From: Solirubrobacterales bacterium
Lineage (GTDB): Bacteria > Actinomycetota > Thermoleophilia > Solirubrobacterales > Solirubrobacteraceae
DNA: 64,000 bases
Reading direction: 5' to 3'
Assembly: GCA_019241635.1 (NCBI GenBank)
Contig: JAFAWR010000285.1
Location: 1-64,000 of the forward strand
The notes beneath the pieces were generated by a model, which was not told the origin of the DNA, did not search any database, and worked only from the letters and a program-made list of their open reading frames with translations. Positions within the stretch are counted from its first letter, which is position 1, and each line of letters begins with the position of its first letter. The position numbers and the translations under genes are program-made. Shown here piece by piece: positions 1,801 through 48,430 of this stretch.

Positions 1801-1817
1801 CAGAGAAACCGCCCTAT

Positions 1818-1927
1818 CCACATCTCCCAGGCTTGTTGTTGGAGCCTGATGGAATTGGCACCTTTCCCTTGCGGGAGGTTGCCGGGGTTTCATAGGGCCA
1901 GTCCCTCCACCCCTCTTGATGCGTACA
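1818..1927 (-). ncRNA. SAM-I (S-box) riboswitch aptamer
   Basis: Minus strand GCATCAAGAGGGGTGGAGGGACTGGCCCTATGAAACCCCGGCAACC...AAGGTGCCAATTCC...GAGATG matches the S-box conserved core. Confidence 0.93.
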
Positions 1928-26709: not shown

Positions 26710-28989
26710 ATGGTCGGGGATTACGACAGCGCTGGCCTGCCCGGCGCGGGGCAGGGCGAATCTACGTCGGGCGGGATGGCTGGCGACGGCTATTCGGAGC
26801 TGCTCGAGCGCGTCCCGGCGATCGTCTACGTGGCCGATCCCGGCGAGGACGGCCTTTGGTATTACGCGAGCCCGCAGATCGAGCACATCCTTGGCTACAC
26901 ACCGGCGCAGTGGTGCGCGGACCCCGATCTGTGGGCCGCGCGGCTGCACCCCGACGATCGCGAATGGGTGCTCACCCGCGAAGCCCGACTGGCCGCGGAC
27001 GCATGTGACGGGGCGGCGCTCGAGTACCGCATGCTCCATCGCGACGGACGCGTCGTGTGGATCCGCGACGACTCGGTGATCGTCCGCGACGAGGCCGGTG
27101 AGCTGCGCTGGCACGGCGTCCTGTCGGACGTCACCGAGCGAAAGCAGGTCGAGGCCGAGCTCGAACGGCGGGCCGCGCAGCAGGCGGCCGTCGCGGTGCT
27201 CGGCGAGCACGCGCTCGAGGGCGCGAGCACCGAGGAGCTGATGCACGAGGCGGTCCGGAGCGCGGCAGAGCTCCTCGGAGTCGAGCTGGCGGCGGTGTGG
27301 GAGCTCCTCCCGGCCGAGACCGAGCTGGTCCTGCGCTCGGGGCTCGGGTGGCCGGCGTCGGAGTTCGGCAACCTGCGCTATCCCGCCGCCGAGGGCTCAC
27401 AGGCCGGCTACACGCTGATGACCGGCGCCCCGGTGGTGGTCGAGGATTGGGACGCGGAGACGCGCTTTGCCCAGCCGCGCTACGGCGAGCGGCGGACCGG
27501 GGCCGGGCTGTCGGTCAAGATCGAGGGGCGCTCGCGCGAGCCCTTCGGCGTGCTGATCGTCCAGTCGATGACGCCGCGGGCGTTCGCGCCCGGCGACGTC
27601 GACTACCTCCAGGCGCTGGCCAACGTGCTGGCTGACGCGCTCGAGCGCCAGGCGATCGAGGACGCCATCCGCGAGCGCGCCGTGCACGACCCCCTGACCG
27701 GCCTGCCCAACCGCGTCCTGTTCGTCGACCGCCTCGAGCATGCGCTGGCCCGCCTCGGACGCTCGGAGGCACTGTGCGCGATCCTGTTTCTGGACCTCGA
27801 CCACTTCAAGCTGGTCAACGACAGCCTCGGCCACCACGTGGGCGACGAGCTTCTGACCGCGGCCGCGCCGCGCCTCAAGCAGGCTCTGCGCTTAAGCGAC
27901 ACGGTCGCCCGGTTCGGTGGGGATGAGTTCGGGATCCTGCTCGAGGACATCTCCTCCGAGCGCGACGCGATCGAGACGGCCGAGCGGATCGCGGCGATCT
28001 TCGCCCGGCCGTTCGTGCTTTCCGGCTCCGAGCACTTCGTGACCACGAGCATCGGGATCGCGCTGGCCCGCGGCGGCGAGCTGGCCGACGAGCTGATCCG
28101 GGACGCGGACGCCGCGATGTACCGGGCCAAGGACCGCGGGCGCGCCCGCTACGAGGTGTTCGACGAGGGCATGCGCGGCCGCGCGATCGAGCGACTGCGG
28201 GTTGAGAACGACCTGCGCCGCGCGCTCGAGCGGGGCGAGCTGCGGCTCGAGTACCAGCCCGTGGTCTCCCTGCGCAACTTCTCGCTCGTCGGGGTCGAGG
28301 CGCTCGTGCGCTGGCGCCACCCCGAGCGCGGTGAGATCCCGCCCTCGGATTTCATCCCGATCGCCGAGGAGAACGGGCTGATCGAGCCGATCGGCCGGTG
28401 GGTGCTCGAGCGGGCCTGCCGCCAGGCCGCCGAGTGGTACGCGGCCCGGCCCGACTCGGCCCCGCTCACGATGTCGGTGAACCTGTCGGCGGTCCAGGTG
28501 ACGCGTCGCTCACTGCCCGATGTGGTCGCCTCGATCCTGCGGAGCACCGGGCTCGATCCGGCCTGCCTGAGCCTCGAGATCACCGAGACCGTGATGGTGC
28601 GCGACGCCGAGGGACTGGGCGAGGTGCTGGGGGCCCTGAAGGCGCTCGGAGTCAGGCTCGTGCTGGATGACTTCGGCACCGGCTATTCGTCGCTCAGCTA
28701 CCTGACGCGCCTGCCGCTCGACGTGCTCAAGGTCGATCGCTCGTTCGTCGACGGCCTCGGCTCGGAGCCTCGCGACACCGCGATCACCGAGACGATCATC
28801 GCGATGTCGCGCGCGCTTTCGCTGGACGTGGTCGCCGAGGGCGTCGAGACCTCCGAGCACGTCCGCGAGCTCAGTCGCCTCGGCTGCGGCCTGGCTCAGG
28901 GCTTCCACTTCTCCCGCGCCGTGCCCGCTGAGGAGATCACACGGGCGCTCGAGCACGGGCCGGCGTGGCTGCCCACGCTCAACACCTGA
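26710..28989 (+). CDS. PAS-GAF-GGDEF-EAL c-di-GMP signalling protein
   Basis: GGDEF (VARFGGDEFGILLED) and EAL (GVEALVRWRHPERGEIPPSDFI) motifs intact. Confidence 0.95.
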   Translation: MVGDYDSAGLPGAGQGESTSGGMAGDGYSELLERVPAIVYVADPGEDGLWYYASPQIEHILGYTPAQWCADPDLWAARLHPDDREWVLTREARLAADACDGAALEYRMLHRDGRVVWIRDDSVIVRDEAGELRWHGVLSDVTERKQVEAELERRAAQQAAVAVLGEHALEGASTEELMHEAVRSAAELLGVELAAVWELLPAETELVLRSGLGWPASEFGNLRYPAAEGSQAGYTLMTGAPVVVEDWDAETRFAQPRYGERRTGAGLSVKIEGRSREPFGVLIVQSMTPRAFAPGDVDYLQALANVLADALERQAIEDAIRERAVHDPLTGLPNRVLFVDRLEHALARLGRSEALCAILFLDLDHFKLVNDSLGHHVGDELLTAAAPRLKQALRLSDTVARFGGDEFGILLEDISSERDAIETAERIAAIFARPFVLSGSEHFVTTSIGIALARGGELADELIRDADAAMYRAKDRGRARYEVFDEGMRGRAIERLRVENDLRRALERGELRLEYQPVVSLRNFSLVGVEALVRWRHPERGEIPPSDFIPIAEENGLIEPIGRWVLERACRQAAEWYAARPDSAPLTMSVNLSAVQVTRRSLPDVVASILRSTGLDPACLSLEITETVMVRDAEGLGEVLGALKALGVRLVLDDFGTGYSSLSYLTRLPLDVLKVDRSFVDGLGSEPRDTAITETIIAMSRALSLDVVAEGVETSEHVRELSRLGCGLAQGFHFSRAVPAEEITRALEHGPAWLPTLNT

Positions 28990-42991: not shown

Positions 42992-45900
42992 ATGGTGTCG
43001 GTGGCAGGGAGCATTGTCAGTCCGGTTCTCGTGGGGCGCGAGACGGAGCTGGCCGCGATGGACCGAGCGCTCCAGCGGGCGCTGGCCGGAGAGCCGGTCA
43101 CGCTGGTGGTCGGCGGGGAGGCCGGGGTCGGCAAGTCGCGGCTGATCGGCGAGCTGATCAACCGGGCGCGGGGCGCGGGCGCGCGGGCGCTGGTGGGCGG
43201 CTGCGTCGAGCTCGACGGCGGGGGAATCCCGCTCGCCCCTCTGGTCGACATGTTGCGGGCGCTGGCCGCCGAGCTGCCGGCCGACGAGCTCGATGAGCTG
43301 CTGGGACCGGCGCGGCGCGAGATCGGGCGCCTGGTCCCCGAGCTCGCCGACGTGCACGGGGCTCAGGCGCCCGCCGACTCGGACCCCTCGCGCATCCTGG
43401 AGCTGCTGCTCGGCGTCGTCGGTCGGCTGGCCGCCCAGGGACCGCTGCTGCTGCTGGTCGAGGATGTCCAGTGGGCCGATCGGGCCACGCTCGATTTGAT
43501 CGCGCTGCTCGTCGCCGCTCCGACCACAAGGCCACTTTTGCTGGTGTTCTCGGTCCGCTCCGACGAGCTTCCGCGCGCGCATCCGTTCCGGCGGATCTCG
43601 GCGCGTTGGGAGCAGCAGCGCACCGTCGAGCGAGTCGAGCTCGAGCGACTGTCGGCCGGCGAGGTCGCGGCACAGATTTCGGCGATCATGGGCGAGCGGC
43701 CCGACGGCGACCTCACCGACCTGCTGTTTGAGCGCTCCGAGGGGATTCCGCTGTTTGTCGAGGAGCTGCTCGGCGCGGTCCGCGAGGGTGGTCTCGGTCC
43801 CGACTACCTGCCTCCCTCGCTGCGTGACGTCCTGCTGGCCCGGGCTGAGCGCCTGTCCGCCAACGCCCAGCATGTCCTGAGGGTCGCCTCGGGCGGGGGT
43901 CGCTGGGTGCCGGATCGGCTGCTCGGCCTGGTGGCCGGGCTTCCCGACGCCGAGCTGTATGGATCGCTGCGGGAGGCGATCGAGCACCAGTTGCTCGTGG
44001 TCGACCCGACGGGTCGCGGCTTCGGCTTCCGCCACGCGCTGGCGCGCGCGGCGATCCACGAGGATCTCCTGCCGGGTGAGCGGGCCCAGCTCCATCGCGC
44101 CTACGCCGAGGCGATGGAGAGCCGGCCCGAGCTTGTCGCCGCCGGACTTGATGGGATCGCGATGCTTGCCCATCACTGGCTTGCCGCGCACGACGTGGCC
44201 CGTGCGCTGGTGGCATCGGTGCGTGCCGGACACGCCGCCGACGCAGTGGCGCCTTCGGCGGCGCAGCGACACTTCGAGGTGGCGCTCGAGCTGTGGCCCC
44301 AGGTTCCGGACGCGGCCGAGCGCGCCGGTATCGCCCACTCGGAGCTCCTCGATGCTGCGGCTGATGCCGCCTTTCGCGCCGGGGCCGGAGAGCGAGCGTT
44401 GGGGCTGGTCGACCAAGCCCTCGAGGAAGTCGGCGATACGGGGACGCTCGAGGAGCGTGCGATGCTGCTCGCGCGGCGGGCCGCCATCCTCGGGAAAATC
44501 GGCCGCGACACGGAAGGGATCGCGGTCCTCGAGCAGGCGGCCGGACTGCTCCCGGCGGAGCCGCCGAGCCGCGCCAGCGCCTATGTCCTCGGGCAGCTGG
44601 CCAGTGCGTTGATCCGCTTGGATCGGTCCGAGCGCGCCGGGCCGATCGCCGAGCGCGCGGTGAGGAGCGCGGCGGCGGTAGGTGCGGATGCCGAGCTGCT
44701 CGACGCACAGATCACCGCGGGTTACGCGCAGGTGTTCTGTGGCGAGGTGGAGGCGGGCCTGGCTCGGATGCAGGAGGCGTCCGAGCGTGCTGCCGCGGCC
44801 GGCCTACCGTGGATCGCGGCGCGCGCCTCGACCAACCTCAGCGACATCCTCGTCACTCTCAGTCGCTACGAACAGGCGATTGAGGTGGCTGACGCGGCCG
44901 TGGCGTTTGTCGAGCGCGCGGGGGGCGCGCGGACTCTAGGCGCATTCCTGCGCGGTAATCGAGCCGAGGCGCTGGTCCGTGCGGGTCGCTGGGACGAGGC
45001 GCTCGCCGCGGTGGCGCCCGAGCGGGAAGCGGCGGGCTCGTGGGCTGCGACCGTCCTGATGGTGCGAATCGAGCTCCACGTGCTGTCGGGGCGCGCAGCG
45101 GAGGCTCGTGCCGACCTGCGTGAGATCCGCCAGTACCTGCGCAACGCCTCGGAGCCGCAGTGGGCTTTGCCGCTGGCGGGGATGGAGGCCGAGCTGGCCC
45201 GTGGCGAGGGAGATATGGATACCGCCCAGACGATTCTCGGTCGCGCGCTCTCGGCGCTCACCCCGGAGCAGGATCCCCGGTATCGCTGGCCGGTGATGTC
45301 GCGCGCCATGCGTGTCGAGGCCGAGCGAGTTATCCGGGCCCGGGACGAAGGCCTGGAGGTGCCGGGCGAGACGGAGCCACGCGTCGAGGAGCTTCTGCGG
45401 GATGCCGATGCGCTCCCGGCCGCGACGCCGAGCGCTCGGGGGCATCGCGCGCTCCTCCAGGCGGAGCATGCTCGTTTGCGCGGCGTCGACGAAGCCTCGG
45501 CATGGGACCGGGCGGTGAGCGCGACTCGCGAAATGCAAGAGCCTTTCTACGTCGCCTACGCGCTGCTGCGCCACGCCGAAGCGCTCGTCGCAGCCGGCGA
45601 CAGCGTCGCCGCCGCCGCTTCCGCAACCGAAGCCCAGGCACTCGCGGGCGGCATGGGCGCGGCGCCGGTCCTGGCCGACGTCGAGGCGCTGATCCGCCGG
45701 GCGCGGCTACGTCCCGACGACGGCGCAGCCGCAAACGGAGACGAGTCGACCCTCGAGACCGAAGCCGCCGACCCATTCGGGCTGACTCCGCGCGAGCGCG
45801 AGGTGCTTCACCTCGTCGCCGACGGCTGCTCCAACGGTCAGATCGCCGAGCAGCTCTTCATCTCCCGGGCCACCGCCAGCGTGCACGTCTCGAACATCCT

Positions 45901-45997
45901 CTCCAAGCTCGGCGTCACCACCCGGGTGCAAGCTGCCGCGCTGGCCCACCGGCGCGGACTGGTCGCCGCGGCGGCCGACAGCGACGCCGGGGCCTGA
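42992..45997 (+). CDS. LuxR-family LAL-type regulator with N-terminal AAA ATPase
   Basis: VGRETELAAMDRAL; GGEAGVGKSRLI; C-terminal LTPREREVLHLVADGCSNGQIAEQLFISRATASVHVSNILSKLGV. Confidence 0.93.
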   Translation: MVSVAGSIVSPVLVGRETELAAMDRALQRALAGEPVTLVVGGEAGVGKSRLIGELINRARGAGARALVGGCVELDGGGIPLAPLVDMLRALAAELPADELDELLGPARREIGRLVPELADVHGAQAPADSDPSRILELLLGVVGRLAAQGPLLLLVEDVQWADRATLDLIALLVAAPTTRPLLLVFSVRSDELPRAHPFRRISARWEQQRTVERVELERLSAGEVAAQISAIMGERPDGDLTDLLFERSEGIPLFVEELLGAVREGGLGPDYLPPSLRDVLLARAERLSANAQHVLRVASGGGRWVPDRLLGLVAGLPDAELYGSLREAIEHQLLVVDPTGRGFGFRHALARAAIHEDLLPGERAQLHRAYAEAMESRPELVAAGLDGIAMLAHHWLAAHDVARALVASVRAGHAADAVAPSAAQRHFEVALELWPQVPDAAERAGIAHSELLDAAADAAFRAGAGERALGLVDQALEEVGDTGTLEERAMLLARRAAILGKIGRDTEGIAVLEQAAGLLPAEPPSRASAYVLGQLASALIRLDRSERAGPIAERAVRSAAAVGADAELLDAQITAGYAQVFCGEVEAGLARMQEASERAAAAGLPWIAARASTNLSDILVTLSRYEQAIEVADAAVAFVERAGGARTLGAFLRGNRAEALVRAGRWDEALAAVAPEREAAGSWAATVLMVRIELHVLSGRAAEARADLREIRQYLRNASEPQWALPLAGMEAELARGEGDMDTAQTILGRALSALTPEQDPRYRWPVMSRAMRVEAERVIRARDEGLEVPGETEPRVEELLRDADALPAATPSARGHRALLQAEHARLRGVDEASAWDRAVSATREMQEPFYVAYALLRHAEALVAAGDSVAAAASATEAQALAGGMGAAPVLADVEALIRRARLRPDDGAAANGDESTLETEAADPFGLTPREREVLHLVADGCSNGQIAEQLFISRATASVHVSNILSKLGVTTRVQAAALAHRRGLVAAAADSDAGA

Positions 45998-46072
45998 CTG
46001 CGCCATAACAAAACCTGCCGAAAACGCTAAAGGTCTGCCGGCCGGCGCCCGATACAGCCCAGGACCCGAGTT

Positions 46073-46182
46073 GATAAAGGCAAACCCGTCGTGAGGCGGG
46101 GACGCAAAGCCAGAGGTCTCGCTCCCGCGAGATAGCTCGGCTTCCGGCTCAGCGTGCTCGATAACCGCATCACCTTTATCGA
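46073..46182 (+). ncRNA. Cyclic di-GMP-I (GEMM-I) riboswitch
   Basis: AAAGGCAAACCCGTCGTGAGGCGGGGACGCAAAGCC with GNRA (GTGA) tetraloop P2, then gagataGCtcGGCTTCCGG; 46073-46080 gataaagg pairs with 46173-46180 cctttatc next to the RBS. Confidence 0.88.
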
Positions 46183-46195
46183 TAGGAGGACATGG

Positions 46196-46291
46196 ATGTC
46201 CAAGTTCAAGTTCCGTCACGCTCAGCTGATGTTGTCGCTCATGTCCCTGATCGCGCTCGTCGTGGTCTCGGGGGCCAGCTGGAAGTTCTAA
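46196..46291 (+). CDS. 31-aa predicted single-TM peptide under the GEMM-I riboswitch (not in the supplied ORF track)
   Basis: GGAGG at 46185-46189, 6-nt spacer, ATG: MSKFKFRHAQLMLSLMSLIALVVVSGASWKF*. Confidence 0.75.
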   Translation: MSKFKFRHAQLMLSLMSLIALVVVSGASWKF

Positions 46292-46304: not shown

Positions 46305-46337
46305 CCGGGCGCTCCGGCTTTCCCGCTGAGCGCCCGG
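46305..46337 (+). other. 9-bp perfect stem-loop between the 31-aa ORF and the GGDEF-EAL gene
   Basis: CCGGGCGCT / AGCGCCCGG; no U-tract follows. Confidence 0.7.
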
Positions 46338-46345
46338 ACCGAGCC

Positions 46346-48430
46346 ATGAAATCTCGCAACCTCGAGTCAGTTCGCCTGTACTGCGTGCTCATCGCGCTCG
46401 TGGGAGCGGGACTGCTCGTTCCGATCTTCTTGGGGTCGTCGCTCGACCTCGACCGCCCCAGTAAATTCGTCGAGTTCGGAGCGCTGGCGGTCAGCGTGCT
46501 GGTCGGCGAGCTCTTCCCGATCGAGGCGCCGCGCCGCTCGGGAGACGGCGAGATCACCGTCTCGGTGATGTTCTCCTTCGCGCTGCTGCTTGGCCTGGGG
46601 CTGGTTCCCGCCCTGATCGCGCAGCTCACCGCCTCGATCGTCCAGGACCGCTTCGCGCGTAAGCCGTGGTGGCAGGTCGGCTTCAACGTCGGCCAGTACA
46701 CCCTTTCCCTCGCCGCCGCTTCGGCGGTCTTGTCGTGGCTGGGGGCCTACGGGGCGCTGCGGGGTACCGGGTTCGGCGCGATCGATCTGTTCGCGGTCGT
46801 GGGCAGTGCCGCCGCGTACTTCGTCGTGAACCTGCTACTGGTCACGCGGGCCACCACCCTTTACATGGGAATCCGGTTCTCGGAGGCCCTCCGCAGCGAC
46901 CTGATCTTCGGCCTGTCGGTGAGCGCCGTGCTGCTGTGCCTGGCCCCCGTGGTCGACACGGTGTTTCAGTCCAGCCCGATCCTCTATCCGCTCCTGCTCG
47001 TCCCCCTGGTCGGCGTGTACGTCAGCGGCCGCCAAACCGTACGCACGGTCACCGCGGAGCATCTCGCCCGCCACGACCACCTCACCGAGCTGCCCAACCG
47101 GCGCTGGTTCATGGAGGCCGTGGGCGGGGCGCTTCAGAACGCCGCCCTCGCCGCCGGCGGCCTGCTCCTGGTCGACCTGAACGGCTTCAAGGACGTCAAC
47201 GACACGCTCGGGCATCACCACGGCGACCTCGTCCTGCAGGAGCTGGGGCCGCGCCTGCGCGCGGCCTTCCGCAGCGAGGACCTCGTGGCCCGCCTGGGCG
47301 GCGACGAGTTCGCCGTGTTCATGCCGGGCGCGGACTTCAGCGCGGCTCAGGCCGCGGTCCAGCGCCTCGAGGACGCCCTGCACAAGCCGGTCGACGTCGA
47401 CGGAATCAGCATCGCGCTCGACGCGAGCGTCGGCCTGGCCTGGTATCCCGAGCACGGCACCGACGTCGACACCCTGCTCCAGCGCGCCGACGTGGCCATG
47501 TACCGAGCGAAGGCTGGGCATCACCCGCTGGTCGTCTACCGCTCCGAGGACGACTACCACAGCCCCGAGCGCCTCGGCCTGGCCGCCGACCTGCGCCAGG
47601 CGCTGGCCGTCGATCAACTCGTGCTCCACTACCAGCCGCAGGTCGAGCTCGGTCACGGAAAGCCGGTGGCCGCCGAGGGCCTGCTGCGCTGGCAACATCC
47701 CCAGCGCGGTCTGCTCGCCCCGCTCGAGTTCATCGAGGTGGCCGAGCGCACCGGCGTGATCAAGGACCTGACCTACCGCGTGCTCGACCTGGGTCTTCGC
47801 GACCTCCGAGCCTGGACCGACGCGGGGCGCCAGCTCTCGCTGTCGCTCAACGTGTCGGTGCGAAGCCTGCTCGACCGCCGCTTCCCGGACGAGGTCGAGA
47901 AGCTCCTCGTGGAGCACGGCGTCGACGGCCACTCGCTCACGCTCGAGCTGACCGAGAGCTCACTGATGGTCGATCCCGAGCTGGCCAAGCGGACCATGCG
48001 CCACCTGGCCGAGCTCGGCGTGTCGGTGGCGATCGACGACTTCGGCACCGGCTACTCCTCGCTGGCCTACCTGACCGACCTGCCGATCGGGGAGCTGAAG
48101 ATCGACAAGTCGTTCGTGCGGGCGATGAGCTCGGACAGCCGCAACGCGATCGTGGTTCGCTCGACGATCGAGCTGGCCCACAACCTGGGCCTGCGCACGG
48201 TCGCCGAGGGGATCGAGGACGCGTACACGTTCGAGCGCCTGCGGGCGCTCGGCTGCGAGCTCGCCCAGGGCTTCCACATGTCACGACCGCTGCCGGCCAG
48301 CGGTCTGGTGCGCTGGTGGGATGTCCACGTCGGACAGCAGCCGGTCGCGAACATCGGACAGCAGCCGGGCGCGCGGCCCGCCGGGGTGCCGGCCAGCCCG
48401 ATCGTCGTGCCGCAGCTGAGCGTGGCCTGA
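46346..48430 (+). CDS. Multi-TM GGDEF-EAL c-di-GMP signalling protein
   Basis: LGGDEFAVFMPG; EAL site reads AAEGLLRWQHP (EGL); DDFGTGYSSLAYL; N-terminal membrane-spanning region. Confidence 0.94.
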   Translation: MKSRNLESVRLYCVLIALVGAGLLVPIFLGSSLDLDRPSKFVEFGALAVSVLVGELFPIEAPRRSGDGEITVSVMFSFALLLGLGLVPALIAQLTASIVQDRFARKPWWQVGFNVGQYTLSLAAASAVLSWLGAYGALRGTGFGAIDLFAVVGSAAAYFVVNLLLVTRATTLYMGIRFSEALRSDLIFGLSVSAVLLCLAPVVDTVFQSSPILYPLLLVPLVGVYVSGRQTVRTVTAEHLARHDHLTELPNRRWFMEAVGGALQNAALAAGGLLLVDLNGFKDVNDTLGHHHGDLVLQELGPRLRAAFRSEDLVARLGGDEFAVFMPGADFSAAQAAVQRLEDALHKPVDVDGISIALDASVGLAWYPEHGTDVDTLLQRADVAMYRAKAGHHPLVVYRSEDDYHSPERLGLAADLRQALAVDQLVLHYQPQVELGHGKPVAAEGLLRWQHPQRGLLAPLEFIEVAERTGVIKDLTYRVLDLGLRDLRAWTDAGRQLSLSLNVSVRSLLDRRFPDEVEKLLVEHGVDGHSLTLELTESSLMVDPELAKRTMRHLAELGVSVAIDDFGTGYSSLAYLTDLPIGELKIDKSFVRAMSSDSRNAIVVRSTIELAHNLGLRTVAEGIEDAYTFERLRALGCELAQGFHMSRPLPASGLVRWWDVHVGQQPVANIGQQPGARPAGVPASPIVVPQLSVA

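Follow-up and report, generated by a model that had tools for sequence, protein, structure and literature searches.

The gene for a predicted 31-residue membrane peptide, previously unlisted, is real, and it lies between a c-di-GMP-I riboswitch and a MASE-GGDEF-EAL gene in the window, the 64,000-nucleotide stretch of Solirubrobacterales DNA that was analyzed (Table 1). As judged from sequence comparison, this peptide belongs to a phylum-wide family encoded just upstream of MASE9-like sensors; both the existence of the micropeptide and its linkage to the sensor are established at that level. No description of the micropeptide family, or of a peptide pairing with MASE9-like c-di-GMP, HD-GYP, or SpoIIE proteins, was found among open-licence papers.

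Table 1. Features of the riboswitch-micropeptide-sensor locus (positions in the window).
Feature	Position	Strand	Basis or remark
c-di-GMP-I (GEMM-I) riboswitch aptamer	46069-46148	+	RF01051, 69.6 bits
5' strand of possible anti-aptamer helix	46070-46080	+	Shares bases with P1 and with the ligand-core GG
3' strand of possible anti-aptamer helix	46173-46183	+	Directly abuts the Shine-Dalgarno sequence
Shine-Dalgarno sequence AGGAGG of the micropeptide	46184-46189	+	Sequence
31-aa micropeptide gene, MSKFKFRHAQLMLSLMSLIALVVVSGASWKF and stop	46196-46291	+	Shine-Dalgarno-led; orthologues with the same layout; family motif
Intergenic hairpin	46305-46337	+	Perfect 10-bp stem CCGGGCGCTC/GAGCGCCCGG, without a T tract
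MASE9-like membrane sensor-GGDEF-EAL protein, 694 aa (P0001)	46346-48430	+	Pfam, model

In a whole-genome covariance-model search, the aptamer scores well above the RF01051 gathering threshold of 35 bits (E 2.2e-13). The same stretch also passes RF03167, the c-di-GMP-I-GGC model (63.6 bits against a gathering threshold of 59), which is the label preferred by cmscan. However, the base that defines the GGC subtype in the RF03167 alignment, a G in the consensus (GGGACGCGAAgCC), is an A at this locus (GGGACGCAAAGCC); the position is presumably A47 in Vc2 numbering. A ligand switch of the GGC subtype was thus rejected despite the RF03167 score, and since the diagnostic base is A and not G, the aptamer is better labeled by sequence as the ordinary c-di-GMP type. 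The conserved ligand core (GGCAAACC...GGGACGCAAAGCC) is present, and the RNA is predicted to bind c-di-GMP. An earlier note on this DNA had proposed a GEMM-I core with a GNRA-capped P2, and both are borne out, the P2 loop being GUGA; the spacing of 14 nt that it gave from aptamer to open reading frame (ORF) was too short, as the start codon lies about 47 nt past the aptamer end. The aptamer thus passes both models of the c-di-GMP-I class (RF01051/RF03167) and, like known members, precedes genes of c-di-GMP biology, but the first gene here encodes a 31-aa micropeptide. Just upstream of the riboswitch is a 1001-aa ORF with a LuxR-type helix-turn-helix end (42992-45997, plus strand), and a SAM (S-box) riboswitch (97.4 bits) is found elsewhere in the window (1817-1925, minus strand).

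The strand abutting the Shine-Dalgarno sequence is probably the expression platform. It is complementary over 11 bp, including two G-U pairs, to the 5' strand within the aptamer, and this helix, which ends at the Shine-Dalgarno sequence, would be mutually exclusive with P1 and with the ligand-core GG. This helix is a plausible form for the platform to take. It is not conserved in the related genomes G040 and G382, and in constrained folding the partial pairing of the Shine-Dalgarno sequence is identical in both states. Between the peptide and enzyme genes, several relatives carry, by eye, a GC-rich hairpin at the site equivalent to the intergenic hairpin, its sequence not being conserved. A terminator reading of the hairpin was rejected because it lacks a T tract.

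The micropeptide has a basic N-terminus, one transmembrane (TM) segment, and the C-terminus SGASWKF. Two other starts were rejected, a GTG at 46154 without a Shine-Dalgarno sequence and an ATG at 46192 in another reading frame. The family has no Pfam or NCBIfam match; a profile of its peptides, which itself included the window peptide, matches that peptide with E 3.5e-12. The window peptide has the features that define the family, namely the G-A-S-W-K-F end, the net positive N-terminus, the single TM segment, and AGGAGG, and it departs from it at position -22, where Q10 replaces R/K. The Shine-Dalgarno-led ORF of the earlier note is therefore found where it was placed, and its proposal of an unannotated single-TM micropeptide is supported, since the frame is conserved in relatives and the family stands far above chance. 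Its proposed check on conservation of the frame gave a divided answer: the frame is kept in relatives, but the comparison with the nearest of them, G040 (55% identical), gives 5.2 synonymous and 17.8 non-synonymous changes and hence no synonymous excess. The link that it drew to the membrane GGDEF-EAL protein, whose gene begins 54 nt downstream, gains support from the family-wide linkage to MASE9-like sensor genes, and nothing points to the role of c-di-GMP effector that it suggested for the peptide.

The family motif was derived from a right-anchored, ungapped alignment of 36 peptides of 20-37 aa, with residues past the final aromatic trimmed. The shared pattern is [RK](-22)...G-A-x-x-[KR]-[WFY], with an aromatic residue at -1 in 36/36, [KR] at -2 in 33/36, A at -5 in 34/36, and G at -6 in 34/36. 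The end motif was partly used to pick the peptides; the G-A and the base at -22, present as K/R in 31 of 35 peptides, played no part in selection. The first ten residues are net positive in all 36. Some members extend one to ten residues beyond the W, and many peptides of family f7 carry a doubled motif such as QFTWDSFDQFTWF. Purifying selection is seen in other, more closely related pairs of family members: eight close pairs hold 53 synonymous and 21 non-synonymous changes (sites approximately 25:75), and the G040/G382b pair differs by five synonymous changes and no non-synonymous change.

Gene arrangement varies among the members. At L281, L283, L285, L289, L291, and L297, two tandem genes for nearly or fully identical 20-23-aa peptides, ending GSTVRW or CSTVRW before the stop codon, precede the MASE9 gene. 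Several loci (L101, L102, L105, L106, L108, L110, and L111) have, by eye, a second mini-ORF ending [RE]KW after the micropeptide; examples upstream of MASE genes are MTVRYGRKW, MQVRNGRKW, and MAAVDAVLHGRKW, each closed by a stop codon.

Linkage to the sensor was measured on a class set drawn from A2, a MASE9-like profile built for the analysis that has matches in 61 of 399 genomes of the class. A peptide qualified if it had 24-48 aa, a Shine-Dalgarno sequence, a hydrophobic stretch, a basic N-terminus, and W or K[FW] near its end. By this fixed rule, a TM micropeptide precedes 48 of the 75 MASE9-like loci, compared with 2 of 3750 dinucleotide shuffles and 2 of 75 reverse strands; about a third of the loci have no peptide recognizable by the rule. 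The gene control took, from ten of the same genomes, 40 GGDEF genes whose upstream DNA could be read; two of these genes are MASE loci already in the set. Both of these have a peptide, whereas none of the 38 non-MASE genes does (Fisher p ~1e-12 for MASE9-like against non-MASE GGDEF genes, with related loci treated as independent). Since the rule was shaped on data from the class, linkage was also tested on other classes of the phylum at Pfam MASE9 loci, under a rule whose length limit was shorter and whose tail was stricter. Here 15 of 28 loci pass as opposed to 10 of 2800 shuffles, related loci again being counted as independent, and several additional peptides are seen by eye. Applied back to the class, the stricter rule retains 45 of 75 MASE9-like loci and 0 of 37 non-MASE controls. 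In the reciprocal direction, a search with the peptide-only profile returned 13 new places, in 10 of which a MASE gene directly follows; of the remaining three, one runs into the edge of its contig and the others, L342 and L343, lack a MASE gene, the match at L343 preceding a non-MASE membrane gene.

Other loci near these sets were also read. Another GGDEF gene of the window (27679-28146, plus strand; L206, open frame of 781 aa) has no upstream micropeptide. The source genome (G000) also encodes a paralogous MASE-GGDEF-EAL protein (L192, on C323), and upstream of this gene and of L114, L109, L113, and L099, some of them from relatives, are longer, signal-peptide-bearing peptides ending GHKIA, GHRIR, GRRMR, or RMKIG.

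Orthologous loci place the riboswitch in a secondary position. In G040, from another family of the same order, the aptamer is followed by MYKFKLRNPKLLLSIAALVALVVDAGAGFKF and a stop codon, a hairpin, and a MASE-GGDEF-EAL gene, and G382, a Thermoleophilaceae MAG related to G040, has two loci of this type. A search that took the N-terminal sensor region of P0001 as query recovered 22 loci in the order, most with an upstream peptide of about 30 aa ending G-A-x-x-K-[FW]; a search for related loci with the A3 alignment gave 5 loci, all in genomes already covered. An Rfam scan found the c-di-GMP-I aptamer in 4 of 60 related loci, those of G000 and G040 and the two of G382. With so few carriers the riboswitch was rejected as a defining feature; the peptide is therefore tied to the sensor gene, with the riboswitch as an additional layer. 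The earlier note had conceived of the system as defined by its riboswitch, but most family members lack one and have a MASE9-like gene immediately downstream. The system is also wider than the note supposed, reaching other orders of Thermoleophilia and other classes of the phylum. The source genome has three further GEMM-I RNAs; going by the translations, the genes behind them encode a secreted protein, an S8 protease, and a type IV pilin, and none of the three RNAs precedes a similar peptide.

P0001 has strong Pfam matches to GGDEF (9e-41) and EAL (4.9e-72), and the catalytic-domain motifs RLGGDEF, EGLLRW, and DDFGTGYSSL are kept. Its match to MASE9 (PF20972) is 20.8 bits, below the cut-off of 24.3, while a related SpoIIE-type protein reaches 30.9 bits. 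MASE9 matches also occur in Thermotoga maritima and Thermus composti. A model of the 240-residue sensor region (pLDDT 86.8, pTM 0.83) has the ECF S components RibU, BioY, ThiT, and FolT as leading PDB matches in Foldseek, and the first 13 matches, CbiMQO excepted, are all either S components or ECF transporters that include one. These matches have a probability of approximately 1.00 and TM-scores to the target of 0.55-0.70, but E values of only 0.017-0.2. The MASE9-like sensor domain is modeled as an ECF S-component-like fold. S components take small ligands from outside, which would fit a peptide tail at the outer face. In open-licence papers, no ligand for MASE9 was found, nor any text on MASE9, on TM0504 (a Thermotoga peptide), or on MASE proteins with peptide partners.

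The outputs joined to the sensor include GGDEF-EAL, GGDEF-HD-GYP (L338, by eye), and SpoIIE. Since these differ, the constant partner of the peptide is the sensor. Family f6 (L264-L274) has a recurrent operon consisting of a GEMM-I RNA, an S8 protease gene, and a MASE9-SpoIIE gene. The C-termini of these proteases carry [FY]-x-W repeats, such as WTKFKWTKFKW...TLIQGQ at the very end, with 8-12 (TKFKW) copies and up to approximately 14-18 Trp in 110 residues. Among nine f6-type proteases read, a MASE gene is directly next in eight, and the ninth meets the contig end. These parallels between peptides and repeat proteins suggest a common aromatic-basic or Trp tag across carriers. At L167, L175, L176, and L169, the gene directly ahead of the MASE gene encodes a protein whose end carries SSWGASSWG or TWTDATW repeats, with SRWGAS/SQWGAS variants at L175/L176. 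One of the other GEMM-I RNAs of the source genome (L190, 2800-4494) precedes a secreted, S8-like protease that has SLGTWSLATW / SLGTWNLATW close to the C-terminus, and no MASE gene directly follows.

Small partners and peptide ligands of membrane receptors have precedents. YfiR is a small extracytoplasmic regulator of the membrane diguanylate cyclase YfiN (TpbB). The present locus likewise has a small dedicated partner gene beside a membrane c-di-GMP enzyme, but YfiR is a folded periplasmic protein, whereas the partner here would be a 31-aa TM peptide without family matches, and the sensor domain is a different one. In the peptide-signaling systems SHP-Rgg and AgrD-AgrC, a tiny hydrophobic peptide gene adjoins its receptor gene. 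This layout is shared, with the receptor role proposed here for a MASE9-like GGDEF/EAL/HD-GYP/SpoIIE protein and not for an Rgg or histidine kinase; an adjacent Rgg regulator is the mark of SHP-Rgg pairs, and the downstream gene here is MASE-GGDEF-EAL. Dedicated protein partners are also known for a MASE protein, Escherichia coli DgcE, which has a GTPase partner system (PMC6510439). MASE9 (PF20972), other MASE domains, and DgcE have in common a membrane sensor domain ahead of GGDEF/EAL outputs, but the candidate partner here is a 20-37-aa peptide encoded immediately upstream. The riboswitch is of a known kind, and so is what the peptide most likely resembles in its working: a small partner, or peptide ligand, dedicated to a membrane sensor.

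The reading considered probable, if far from secure, is that the 31-aa peptide serves the MASE9-like sensor as its dedicated partner or ligand on the extracytoplasmic side, in this case with feedback by c-di-GMP. By the positive-inside rule, the peptide would be anchored in the membrane by its one TM helix with the N-terminus inside and a short C-terminal tail, ending G-A-x-x-[KR]-[WF], outside. This aromatic-basic tail, still anchored or clipped off, may dock at the sensor's outer face and tune the enzyme domains joined to it, which in P0001 are GGDEF and EAL. The riboswitch ahead of the micropeptide probably controls the enzyme too, if the genes are co-transcribed, and c-di-GMP could then feed back on synthesis of peptide and enzyme in either regulatory direction, creating a feedback loop in this lineage.

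The peptide might instead be the precursor of a secreted pheromone, with the TM segment as signal or anchor, a protease freeing the tail, and the MASE9 sensors of neighbors reading it; the S8 proteases with their (TKFKW) arrays would then be self-processing multi-copy precursors. This is rather unlikely. The tandem identical genes at L281, L283, and L289, the multi-copy repeats fused to subtilisin, and the sensor modeled as S-component-like and outward-facing are in keeping with it, as are a size and layout like those of short hydrophobic pheromone genes. However, neither an exporter nor a protease for processing was identified, the mature tail past the TM segment would be only about 5-7 residues in most members, and the repeat domains could equally bind wall or membrane. 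Improbable, in turn, is a leader (attenuator) peptide; the downstream gene would then be controlled, via the intergenic hairpin, by translation of the peptide or by arrest at its conserved K-W/F-stop. Residues are indeed conserved beside the stop codon, and GC-rich hairpins separate peptide and enzyme in several loci, but conservation also covers the hydrophobic span, the basic start, and the basic residue at fixed -22. Moreover, the peptide occurs in tandem copies and tracks the sensor domain whatever the enzyme, some members continue past the W, and whole secreted proteases with a similar motif replace the peptide.

A stand-alone membrane micropeptide, such as a toxin-like or stress peptide that is merely an operon mate of the sensor, would account for the few matches without a MASE neighbor (L342 and L343). 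The linkage to MASE9-like genes, the absence at other GGDEF genes, the varied output domains, the tandem copies, and the protease carriers weigh against it and leave it very improbable. A spurious ORF, with only untranslated leader separating the riboswitch from the GGDEF-EAL gene, is hardly credible: it agrees with the lack of synonymous excess against G040, but relatives share the 31-aa length, the strong Shine-Dalgarno sequence, the motif, and the position, and closer pairs show synonymous bias alongside the profile match.

Few membrane c-di-GMP enzymes have a known input, and a peptide gene conserved next to a single sensor family would supply a candidate; small synthetic peptides and simple deletions could then test what the sensor perceives. 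The finding also points to a large family of 20-37-aa genes, likely missed by length-filtered annotation, in members of the phylum remote from the model organisms. The presence of a c-di-GMP riboswitch on the peptide-sensor operon suggests a built-in feedback loop, and the GEMM-I RNA class also precedes an unrelated carrier of a similar motif, the S8 protease repeats, in another family. A broader proposal, tentative and held at somewhat below even confidence, is that MASE9-like sensors are receptors for encoded aromatic-basic tags, whether on micropeptides or on the repeats of secreted subtilisins, in phylum-wide peptide signaling. If true, a class of peptide signaling would feed directly into c-di-GMP, HD-GYP, and SpoIIE outputs, and some lineages would close it into a loop by c-di-GMP riboswitches.
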